Source of the DNA: Desulfobacteraceae bacterium
GTDB taxonomy: Bacteria; Desulfobacterota; Desulfobacteria; Desulfobacterales; Desulfosalsimonadaceae
Length of the DNA: 64,000 nucleotides
NCBI GenBank assembly: GCA_014237465.1
Contig: JABZFM010000033.1
Location: forward strand, 62,001 to 126,000
Direction of reading: 5' to 3'
Shown here piece by piece: positions 18,156 to 20,496 of this stretch (its first letter is position 1; each line of letters begins with the position of its first letter). Position numbers and translations under genes: made by a program. The notes under the pieces are model-generated. The model saw nothing but the letters and a program-made list of their open reading frames with translations, was not told the origin of the DNA and did no database searches.

Positions 18156-18650
18156 ATGGATAGAATACAGAAGTATATAGGTTTAACGGCAGTGTTTCTT
18201 TTGCTGTGTGGTTTGGTTTTTCCGGCAGATAAAGCAAGGGCTGATACACGAATATTTTTGTCAAAAGGGCAGTCGGTTTATGTGCCCATCTATTCCCATA
18301 TTTATAGCGGCAACCGGGAGCATCCTTTCTATCTGGCGGCAACACTGAGCATTCGAAATACGGATGCCGTCAATCCGGTTACGATAACTACTGCAAATTA
18401 TTATGATTCGGACGGTAATCTGCTGATGAACTATTTGGAAAAACCTATAAAACTCAAAGCTCTGGCATCCACCCGGTTTGTTGTCAAAGAATCCCACAAG
18501 GCCGGGGGTTCCGGCGCCAATTTTATTGTTAAATGGGAAGCCGATAAAAAGGTGATTCCGCCGCTAATTGAATCGGTTATGATCGGAACTCAATCCCAGC
18601 AGGGACTTTCCTTTACTTCCAGAGGGATAGTTGTTGAAGAAAATCAGTGA
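18156..18650 (+). CDS. DUF3124 domain secreted protein
   Basis: The ATG at 18156 is preferred because AAAGGT precedes it; an in-frame ATG at 18141 would add five residues. About 164 aa with a signal peptide (residues 1-29, LLLCGLVFPADKARA). The mature part starts with TRIFLSKGQSVYVPIYSHIY and contains AATLSIRNTD, VTITTANYYDSDG and the conserved SFTSRGIVV end, the DUF3124 signature. Function is unknown; predicted periplasmic. It lies alone on the plus strand, followed by a GNAT remnant. Confidence 0.75.
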   Translation: MDRIQKYIGLTAVFLLLCGLVFPADKARADTRIFLSKGQSVYVPIYSHIYSGNREHPFYLAATLSIRNTDAVNPVTITTANYYDSDGNLLMNYLEKPIKLKALASTRFVVKESHKAGGSGANFIVKWEADKKVIPPLIESVMIGTQSQQGLSFTSRGIVVEENQ

Positions 18651-18686
18651 TAACGGCGAGTTGACTTGCAATAAAGGAATCTCCTG

Positions 18687-18828
18687 ATGGCAATGATTCG
18701 CCAGTTTGAGGAGTCTGACTGGCCCGAGGTCTGGTGTGTTATTAAAACCGTTTTTCGGGCTGGAAGAAACCTATGCCTTTTCACCGGAAATCGCAGAGAG
18801 AGATGCCTATAAAATCTGGCTCGAATGA
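18687..18828 (+). pseudogene. GNAT acetyltransferase N-terminal remnant (frameshifted)
   Basis: An ATG with AAAGGA upstream encodes MAMIRQFEESDWPEVWCVIKTVFR. A +1 frame change then gives LEETYAFSPEIAERDAYKIWLE and a stop. Together these read like the start of the GNAT family whose members begin MIRxxxxSDWPxVWxIxxPVFRxGETYAFSP. The remaining two thirds of the domain are missing; a hairpin repeat follows at 18853. Confidence 0.7.
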
Positions 18829-18852
18829 TAGGGGGCACCCATTAAAGGACGA

Positions 18853-18906
18853 GTCTGCTCTTGACCCATTGCCATTTATTCACAAGAGTCAAGGGCAGAC
18901 CCCCAA
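18853..18906. repeat. Hairpin repeat flanking the Sec-rhodanese gene (copy 1)
   Basis: Arms GTCTGCTCTTGACCC and GAGTCAAGGGCAGAC form an imperfect hairpin followed by CCCCAA. A direct-orientation relative occurs at 19750-19801. Together they bracket the rhodanese gene. The form (GGGTC...GACCC) resembles REP-type hairpins associated with RAYT transposases. Confidence 0.7.
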
Positions 18907-18920
18907 TTCTTTTTCAATAC

Positions 18921-19697
18921 CTATTTGAGGATATATATATTTGGGTAGTCCATAAGCTTCAAAGTCGCGGCAATGACACCCGCGACTGCCGGGACATCGT
19001 GAATGATTATCAGGGCGTTGCTCTTACTTAGCTCCTCCATCATGGGTTTCGAGAACATGTTGCCGTAATCAACGTAGTGGGCCCCCTGGACATGACCTTT
19101 CTTAAATTTCGATTCATCACGAAAATCTACAAACGTACAATTTTTTAACTTTCCGGCATCGCCTTCGGTGATGATTAGCGCGGCAAAATCGTTCTTGTTC
19201 ACAGCAATCAAGGCCTCAAGAAGTTCCGGGTTCCCTTCCGTAGCATACCCTACATTTTTCCACCCATTGATACCATCTCTCATCCAGTAAACATTCTTGT
19301 AGCCATTAGCAACCGCCAACCTGGCGGTATGATAGGATTTCCATCATGTGTACGACGCGCAATAGGTTACAATGGGGGTATCCTTGTCTTTTGGAAGCTG
19401 TGCTATGTCAAAGTCGACTTCGCTCAGCGGCATATCAGTGTGTTTATGGTTCTTTGGAACCAAACACGTTATGTGGATTGTGCCGGAAGGATGACCCTTC
19501 ATGAAATCGGTCGTGTGACTGTGGCAAGCAATCACTGTCGCACCATTTTCGTGAAGTTTTTTTGCTTCTTGCAGGCTTATCGCTTTGAAGCCGTCTCCCC
19601 CTTTTTCAGGGGCAGGTACCTTGGCCGTAAAACCGGACGTTGAAAATCCGACTATCAACAATAATGATAAAATAAGAATTGATATCTTTCTGTACAT
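18921..19697 (-). CDS. Putative selenocysteine-containing tandem-rhodanese protein (UGA read as Sec118)
   Basis: Start MYRKISIL at 19697 has an ideal AAAAAGGAGG six bases upstream. A signal peptide (about residues 1-24) suggests a periplasmic location. The first rhodanese domain (about 30-145) has TYCASYT-UGA-WKSYHTARLAVANGYKNVYW. The UGA at 19344-19346 is followed in the same frame by 117 intact codons that complete this domain and add a second one (FVDFRDESKFKKGHVQGA...). Relatives I recall carry Cys at the UGA position (C-x4-C-W-K-S), so Sec replaces a conserved Cys. A hairpin suited to a bacterial SECIS lies 17-33 nt after the UGA. The second domain lacks a loop Cys (IIIHDVPAVAG) and may be structural; the C-terminus ends early, near a hairpin repeat. 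The alternative is a simple nonsense mutation. Confidence 0.72.
19312..19328 (-). promoter_or_regulatory. Candidate bacterial SECIS hairpin
   Basis: On the minus strand ACCGCC-AGGTT-GGCGGT is a perfect 6-bp stem with a 5-nt apical loop containing GG followed by U. The loop lies at nucleotides +22 to +26 after the UGA, inside the about 16-37 nt window known for bacterial SECIS elements that bind SelB. It lies within coding sequence, as required in bacteria. Confidence 0.65.
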
Positions 19698-19749
19698 CGC
19701 TAACCTCCTTTTTCTCTTCATGTTGTTGTCTTTTTGCGTAATATTTATG

Positions 19750-19801
19750 GGGCCTGCTCTTGACCCACTACCACACATGAGTTTAAGGGGAGACCCCCAA
19801 C
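19750..19801. repeat. Hairpin repeat flanking the Sec-rhodanese gene (copy 2)
   Basis: GGCCTGCTCTTGACCCAC...GAGTTTAAGGGGAGACCCCCAA, the same orientation and similar sequence to 18853-18906. The two copies lie about 890 bases apart on either side of the rhodanese gene. Confidence 0.65.
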
Positions 19802-19809
19802 GCCACTAT

Positions 19810-19865
19810 CACAGGTGTCAAAAAGCTGTGTAGGTGATACGAACGCAGTTTTTTGACATCCTGTG
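19810..19865. repeat. Short palindrome
   Basis: CACAGGTGTCAAAAA at the left and TTTTTTGACATCCTGTG at the right pair, with GCTGTGT and AACGCAG-like sequence in between. Possibly a reduced member of the boxed palindrome family; located at the 3' side of the methyltransferase gene. Confidence 0.55.
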
Positions 19866-19875
19866 CATGGTTTTG

Positions 19876-20496
19876 TCAGCCTTTTACCGCAACGCCACGA
19901 ATTGTAGGTCTGACGAGAGGCATTGCTTTTCGCATACTCTCTCGCTTAATTTCAGAAATTTCAAATCCTGCTGATACCATAGACTTTTCTATTTCCCTAT
20001 TTAAATGGCAGTTGCCTGCCAACTTTCGCCAAAAGGGATTCATACGGTTCTGCCACCTTCTTCTTTTGGAGCCTTTGTCAGCTGCTACATGCTCTAGGAA
20101 AACTAAACTACCACCTGGCTTTAATACTCGATGGATTTGGTTCAATACAGCCTCAAGGTTTGTAACTGAACAGCAAACAAATGATGCAACTACAAAATCA
20201 AAAGACTCTTCATTTGCTTCAATGTTCTCAGCTGAAGCAGAAGATACAGTTACGTCTTTGAGCGCACTGTTACCAATTTTAACTTCCAACAGCCTACGCA
20301 TGGATTCGTCAGGCTCAGAAAGTACAAGCCGAATAACTGATTCAGGGTAGAATTCTATATTTGCTCCGGTTCCAGCGCCAATCTCAAGCACATGACCATG
20401 GACTTGTTTTAAAAGCCCTTGCCTCCACTCCTTTAAGCAGGCTTCTTCTGCTGAAATCATGCATTTATCGTATAAAAACGCACTTAGAAAAGACAT
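19876..20496 (-). CDS. Class I SAM-dependent methyltransferase
   Basis: 206 aa. Motif I HVLEIGAGTGANIEFYP near residue 35, the acidic motif LVLSEPDESMRRLLE, motif post-II FDFVVASFVCCSV, and VLKPGGSLVFLEHV. This is the Methyltransf_11 class, similar in layout to small METTL7-like enzymes that act on thiols or small molecules; the substrate cannot be told. It is isolated between a short palindrome and another at 20522-20622, and lies downstream of priA on the same strand. Confidence 0.82.
   Translation of the reverse strand: MSFLSAFLYDKCMISAEEACLKEWRQGLLKQVHGHVLEIGAGTGANIEFYPESVIRLVLSEPDESMRRLLEVKIGNSALKDVTVSSASAENIEANEESFDFVVASFVCCSVTNLEAVLNQIHRVLKPGGSLVFLEHVAADKGSKRRRWQNRMNPFWRKLAGNCHLNREIEKSMVSAGFEISEIKRESMRKAMPLVRPTIRGVAVKG

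Follow-up and report, generated by a model that had tools for sequence, protein, structure and literature searches.

Gene structure at the locus

In the window, the whole 64,000-nucleotide stretch of DNA analysed here, we identified a minus-strand gene that very probably encodes a selenoprotein with two rhodanese domains. The features at this locus are listed below.

18921-19697, minus strand: putative selenoprotein gene, a tandem rhodanese of 258 aa when read through UGA118, with stop TAG (translation, PF00581)
19344-19346, minus strand: in-frame UGA, predicted Sec118, conserved in the family copies
19359-19361, minus strand: Cys113, first residue of the C-x4-U motif, at the canonical position of the rhodanese catalytic Cys (invariant in 23 of 23 aligned rows)
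19254-19574, minus strand: rhodanese domain 1, residues 42-148, with C113 and the predicted Sec118 (PF00581, 1.8e-20)
18933-19217, minus strand: degenerate rhodanese domain 2, approximately residues 161-255 (second PF00581 stretch; NF045521 match 161-255)
19623-19697, minus strand: probable signal sequence, residues 1-25 (assigned by eye; helix 2-19 in the structure model)
19704-19709, minus strand: Shine-Dalgarno sequence AGGAGG, 6 nt upstream of the ATG (similar purine-rich sites in most of the 24 members)
19312-19328, minus strand: SECIS-type hairpin, stem ACCGCC/GGCGGU, loop AGGUU with GG (folding, covariation, bSECIS constraints)
18855-18906, plus strand: dispersed hairpin-forming repeat, copy downstream of the selenoprotein gene (19 matches in its own genome, this one included)
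19754-19800, plus strand: dispersed repeat, copy upstream of the selenoprotein gene (same repeat as 18855-18906)

The reading frame extends from ATG (19697-19695) through TGA (19346-19344), which is codon 118, to TAG (18923-18921) and contains no further in-frame stop. Translation therefore agrees with a preliminary description of this DNA as to the UGA and the otherwise open frame. Its count of 117 intact codons after the UGA was reversed, since the UGA comes after 117 codons and is itself followed by 140 sense codons. The strong ribosome site that it reported is the AGGAGG at 19709-19704. The UGA, said to follow TYCASYT, is indeed preceded by YCASYT and followed by WKSYHTARLAVANGYKNVYW as claimed, and with UGA translated as Sec the active-site loop of domain 1 reads Y-C113-A-S-Y-T-U118-W-K-S. 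It was also right that ORF callers split the gene: a mechanical list gives one frame of 144 aa (19344-19778) and another of 132 aa starting from TTG 19319. Because standard-code ORF calling cuts the gene at the UGA, the whole protein is easily missed. Residues 1-25 look like a Sec-type signal sequence, and this signal-like N-terminus suggests that most family members are located in the periplasm. One branch, represented here by L039, L040 and L126, is devoid of a signal-like N-terminus and looks cytosolic.

Conservation of the UGA codon

We scanned 84,980 species genomes using a query that carries Cys in place of the predicted Sec; one of the six peptide patterns spans the site, also with Cys, and Cys versions were thus not disfavoured. 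The scan returned 23 loci. We then read 26 sequences, among them the window gene, the other copy present in its genome and two records that came from other searches. Of these, 24 are family members, and a single UGA is found at the identical place in all 24. The remaining two, L092 and L093 (Nitrospirota), are relatives with one domain, in which Gly takes the position of Sec and Ser that of Cys113. L094, a 26-residue end fragment, was left out of the 24-member count. The contig is labelled Lokiarchaeota, its end holds this 26-residue stretch, 92% identical to the selenoprotein, and it is possibly misbinned.

Profile searches, which scored the best six or fewer candidates per genome so that weaker relatives may be missed, were run on 389 genomes of the order and 395 of the phylum. 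In the order, 30 genomes were matched, 29 of them with this family; the UGA is present at residue 118 in 28 of 28 matches that span the site, and four partial matches end short of it. G141 was rejected as a family member because it carries a different rhodanese with Cys. In the phylum, the two copies of the window's own genome were recovered together with L126, which also has the UGA, and the remaining matches were weaker and belonged to other rhodaneses. A motif search of all fetched loci, with any residue allowed at the Sec site and the flanks fixed as WKSYH-[AST]-A-x-L-A (copies that differ in the flanks are not counted), found TGA in 32 of 32 distinct copies. No Cys version of the tandem family was found in the 84,980-genome scan, the 389 genomes of the order or the motif search. 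Carriers of the UGA include the named strains Desulfocicer vacuolatum DSM 3385 (L082) and Desulfobacter latus AcRS2 (L083), and the occurrence of the same UGA in many separate assemblies, these two among them, excludes a sequencing or assembly error, a concern that the preliminary description had raised.

That description placed Sec118 at the second Cys of a C-x4-C loop and proposed an alignment of homologues at this position. More distant C-x4-C rhodaneses do have Cys there: across 78 distinct segments the aligned site holds 40 C, 29 U, 6 G and 3 gaps, counted without duplicates and without segments of fewer than 20 residues, with this family included in the U rows and some rows being second domains. 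L131, with YCNGTTCWMS, is an example of Cys at the site. Within the tandem family no Cys orthologue was found, and the usual Sec/Cys pairing holds only with the more distant relatives.

RNA hairpin and selenocysteine machinery

In most members the codons after the UGA are TGG AAA TCC TAT CAY GCC GCC AGG YTG GCG GTT, with few departures. Synonymous codon diversity, calculated for members sharing the amino acid in 11-codon windows with at least seven usable codons, drops to 0.135 over the 11 codons from the UGA (nine usable), which is the gene minimum, against a median of 0.436. The reported 6-bp stem from +16 with its loop at +22 to +26 is present as ACCGCC-AGGTT-GGCGGT at +16 to +32 (19328-19312), and folding prefers to pair the A and U too, which reduces the loop to 3 nt. 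Folding of the mRNA after the UGA, another of the checks proposed earlier, gave -10.8 kcal/mol for the 25-nt hairpin stretch and -16.2 kcal/mol (z = -2.33) for 46 nt from the UGA; the 66-nt stretch from the UGA is only slightly better than shuffled sequences (z = -1.72; 15 of 200 shuffles as good).

Covariation was assessed in an alignment of 22 of the 24 members (A1, without L032 and L040; L086, L087 and L090 start 3 nt late, with the stem columns unaffected). Base pairing of the stem, (A/G)CCGCC/GGCGGU, is intact in 99.2% of the 126 cells from 21 distinct rows. Compensatory changes from C-G to U-A occur at two stem pairs, one in L088, which recurs in L126 and L161, and one in L085. None of 500 shuffles showed two-sided pair changes at so high a level, and none were seen in slid controls. 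Pair types, one of the five covariation measures, did not rise above the shuffles, of which 451 of 500 reached the same level, and three of the six stem pairs never vary. The accessible part of a 2026 review (PMC13188914, including the Fig. 2 legend) gives constraints for bacterial SECIS elements (bSECIS) of a 3-9 nt loop, a 4-16 bp stem, G in the first two loop positions, a spacing of 16-37 nt and an MFE of at most -7.5 kcal/mol. When these published constraints were coded by hand, all 24 members and all 32 distinct copies fell within them, against a background of 44 of the 2648 UGAs of the window; the window copy scored -10.3 kcal/mol with a 3-nt loop. A search of 18600-20000 against Rfam gave no match with E up to 1. 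The hairpin after the UGA is, as shown computationally, of SECIS type and under selection.

A genome search for selA, selB, selC and selD, also proposed in the preliminary description, found all four over cut-off in the genome of the window, at 614.6, 369, 75.1 and 362.2 bits, respectively (G000 positions C66:100918, C57:115800, C64:130073 and C63:107176). The selD gene of this genome itself has an in-frame TGA. Another 25-genome search covered selB, selC and selD, and 23 of these genomes carry the rhodanese family. Among the carriers, selB was over cut-off in 20 of 23, selC in 18 and selD in 19, and at least two of the three were present in 22. G166, a carrier that is 82% complete, has no selB, selC or selD over cut-off. 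In 14 control genomes the numbers over cut-off were one for selA, two each for selB and selD and five for selC; the selC model is thus the least specific and is not decisive alone.

Reading of UGA118

Among 16 full-length members of equal length, mean differences at codon positions 1/2/3 were 0.16/0.08/0.41 before the UGA (codons 30-117) and 0.19/0.13/0.42 after it (codons 135-258). The similarity of these values indicates that both halves are read in this frame. We consider it probable, at roughly 85%, that the rhodanese gene encodes a genuine selenoprotein, in which SelB would read the hairpin after the UGA and bring Sec-tRNA, so that codon 118 becomes selenocysteine in the active-site loop of domain 1.

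If the UGA were a true stop, the locus would be a pseudogene or a pair of separate short genes, as the two frames obtained by mechanical ORF calling might suggest. However, the UGA is identical in all 32 distinct copies, purifying selection is alike before and after it, and synonymous change is suppressed directly after it. The internal TTG at 19319 that would start the second frame is TTG in 17, CTG in 6 and TTA in 1 of the 24 members and is therefore not a conserved start. Moreover, an identical stop with a covarying hairpin would not be expected to persist in a pseudogene. Conservation of the UGA, selection on both sides of it and the covarying hairpin rule out this reading for practical purposes, and we regard it as extremely improbable. 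Readthrough at UGA occurs in nature, and a Trp codon lies directly after the UGA in this gene, so decoding as Trp or readthrough by a near-cognate tRNA, in either case without selenium, was also considered. Against this, the neighbouring methyltransferase gene (19876-20496) terminates with TGA, meaning that UGA also serves as a stop in this genome. Sec insertion is favoured by the SECIS constraints and the covariation, and the genome has the sel genes. Relatives without UGA most often have Cys at the aligned position, and none of them has Trp. On these grounds Trp decoding was ruled out, and the chance of any selenium-free readthrough seems vanishingly small.

Rhodanese fold and active site

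The protein matches PF00581 in two stretches with 73.7 bits, over the gathering cut-off of 22.2. Its structure was predicted with Cys replacing Sec, and the model is of moderate quality, with a pLDDT of 77, a pTM of 0.52 and a linker at about 50 (alignment A3 comprises 21 rows, without L032, L039 and L040). Structure comparison of the model, which speaks mainly for residues 30-159, aligned domain 1 with GlpE (1gmx) at Z 12.8 and an rmsd of 2.3 over 103 residues. The best tandem match was 6mxv (E 4.9e-11), with an rmsd of 14.3 which indicates that the domain arrangement in the model is not reliable. In the model, C113 lies just after strand 109-112 and residue 118 just before helix 119-130, a placement which is the usual rhodanese active-site arrangement as far as the prediction goes. 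Residue 118 is invariant in 23 of 23 rows, as are C113, W119, K120, S121, Y122 and H123. Domain 2 has the loop IIIHDVPAVAG, and with no Cys in this loop the domain is probably structural.

Domain 1 also contains a C-H-x-H sequence (residues 58-61) and Cys78, which are conserved in most members and changed in L039; C58 is kept in every row other than L039. These residues could possibly form a second disulfide or a metal site.

Relationship to known rhodanese selenoproteins

Five rhodanese-like selenoprotein forms, UxxS, UxxG, CxU, UxxG and TsoB with UxxxxU, are listed in the accessible part of the 2026 review (PMC13188914). The tandem rhodanese with C-x4-U-W-K-S is probably an unnamed selenoprotein subfamily of this already known kind. 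The accessible text of PMC13188914, PMC9312934, PMC1794560, PMC8318568, PMC2398784, PMC1088965 and PMC12013277 contains no C-x4-U-W-K-S tandem rhodanese. In the accessible portion of the open-access literature searched we found neither a description of such a protein nor biochemical data on the family. 'Form 1' (UxxS, WP_010941598.1) was compared by motif only, and on that basis its UxxS fits the U-W-K-S found here (PMC13188914, accessible part).

TsoB (NF045694) has Sec at the same second loop position, with Y-U-[AT]-G-L-[AT]-U-[VA]-R-S in 20 loci against Y-C-A-S-Y-T-U-W-K-S here, and it occurs in the same order, being over its cut-off in 31 of 195 genomes, the window's own genome excepted. 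However, TsoB contains a DsbD-like part and a pair of Sec residues (U-x4-U), whereas the present protein has Cys first, one Sec, a length of 258 aa and a degenerate rhodanese as its second domain. The window protein scores 50.4 bits with NF045694 against a cut-off of 805. NF041203 ('form 3', rhodanese_LYCAU) likewise combines Cys and Sec in one loop, according to the accessible part of PMC13188914, but with CxU rather than C-x4-U spacing, and the score is 33.2 against a cut-off of 115 bits. PQQ_CXXCW (TIGR03865) aligns over residues 104-154, including the Sec-Trp site; it differs in having CxxCW instead of C-x4-U-W spacing and no Sec in its name or description, and scores 52.1 against 128.05 bits. 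The 23 members of alignment A2 match the TsoB, NF041203 and PQQ_CXXCW models weakly, with the best E of 2.6e-17 to TsoB. A loop of equal length, with Cys at the Sec position, is also found in C-x4-C rhodaneses of the phylum, such as L011 (YCHGPDCMKS), L131, L146 (YCASSMCSAA) and the YCGFVKCTRSH group; these fall on separate branches of the tree.

The tree was built from 100 rhodanese domains (109 domain segments less nine identical ones, 127 columns, five rows assigned to no group). It has several long branches and unsettled bootstrap values and was relied on only for the separation of this family, which forms one group (13 rows, 99/91), from TsoB, which stands apart (20 rows, 99/95). Score, architecture and tree together rule out membership of TsoB. 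The row nearest to the family is L146, a C-x4-C protein on a very long branch, followed by the Gly group. L092, L093, L127 and L128, single-domain relatives with the WKSY sequence, carry Gly in place of Sec and Ser in place of Cys, and are possibly an inactive or differently working sister group.

A possible Cys/Sec relay

The protein may be a periplasmic thiol/selenol sulfurtransferase, as the preliminary description proposed. A mechanism can be outlined as follows. Sulfane sulfur would be bound as a persulfide on Cys113, at the canonical rhodanese position. Sec118, which stands where the next helix begins, would then attack the Cys113 persulfide as a resolving selenolate, so that sulfide would be released or the sulfur passed on and a C113-Se118 selenenylsulfide would remain. 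A periplasmic thiol-disulfide partner of the DsbD/thioredoxin type would reduce this bond. Such an electron supply is suggested by TsoB, the U-x4-U protein described as a rhodanese/DsbD fusion. We put forward this sequence, in which a Cys113 persulfide is resolved by Sec118 and the selenenylsulfide re-reduced in the periplasm, as a tentative proposal whose odds lie just below even.

Alternatively, Sec may be inserted, yet the protein, instead of being a sulfurtransferase, may be a thiol-disulfide (selenenylsulfide) oxidoreductase or a peroxide or polysulfide reductase with a rhodanese fold, in which Sec118 is the attacking residue and C113 the resolving one. In favour of this, the C and U of the C-x4-U loop look like a redox pair, TsoB has U-x4-U in the same loop of its rhodanese/DsbD fusion, and two further Cys (58 and 78) are conserved in most members. 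In addition, most selenoproteins of known function are oxidoreductases, according to the accessible part of PMC2398784. On the other hand, C113 occupies the canonical position of the rhodanese nucleophile, and there is no linked redox partner gene. We see this alternative as a real possibility that nevertheless falls somewhat short of an even chance.

Distribution and genomic context

The family is carried by 9 of 195 relatives, the window's own genome being counted. No match of family strength was found in the 10 other genomes of the genus or in the 25 others belonging to the taxonomic family. Two copies of the gene, sharing 884 bp at 88% identity, are present in the own genome. ORFs of at least 90 aa were clustered for the surroundings of 24 loci, comprising the window, L032 and 22 more, some of which lie on short contigs; no cluster of neighbours included more than two loci. 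The context therefore says nothing on function. This distribution and the two copies, together with the lack of conserved neighbours, suggest the gain and loss of a lone gene. No relative was found in the viral contigs scanned, and among plasmids seven records matched weakly, in every case over less than 80% of the query.

The two repeat copies that flank the gene are imperfect copies of a hairpin repeat that is also present on contigs C9, C66, C34 and C53 of G000. Several of its 19 genome matches are clustered on few contigs, and the second gene copy has one as well. The repeat may, we infer, be a REP-like element and have contributed to the movement or duplication of the gene.

A broader reading is that the family is selenium-dependent throughout its sampled range: Sec118 would not replace the rhodanese nucleophile but would act as a second, resolving residue and so make a Cys/Sec redox relay out of a sulfur carrier with one cysteine, Cys versions would not persist, and the gene would travel alone, without linked partners, mostly among Desulfobacterales. 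We hold this reading, its last part included, to be rather doubtful. If it were true, the chemistry of the relay (persulfide in, sulfide out) may need selenium. Sec in every sampled copy makes this an unusual family and offers a clean test of what selenium contributes to sulfur transfer.

Further UGA-containing rhodanese candidates

Rhodanese loops of the C-x4-U or U-x4-U type recur in several branches of the phylum, and the present family may therefore clearly exemplify a broader role of selenium in sulfur metabolism that has been little described. L041 and L045-L050 are triple-rhodanese frames, lipoprotein-like by eye, each with two in-frame UGAs in C-x4-U loops. These loops are mostly YC.GPTUKLSH and YCGGYTUKLSH, with mixed Sec/Cys versions in L022 and L030. 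All of these loci can be regarded as further candidate rhodanese selenoproteins in the order. UGA-containing rhodanese candidates with C-x4-U loops were also observed in L042, L043, L044, L051, L135 and L145, on branches apart from the family, with the loops YCLGGTU, YCHGPGU, YCMGERU, YCNGFKU and YCMGHDU.
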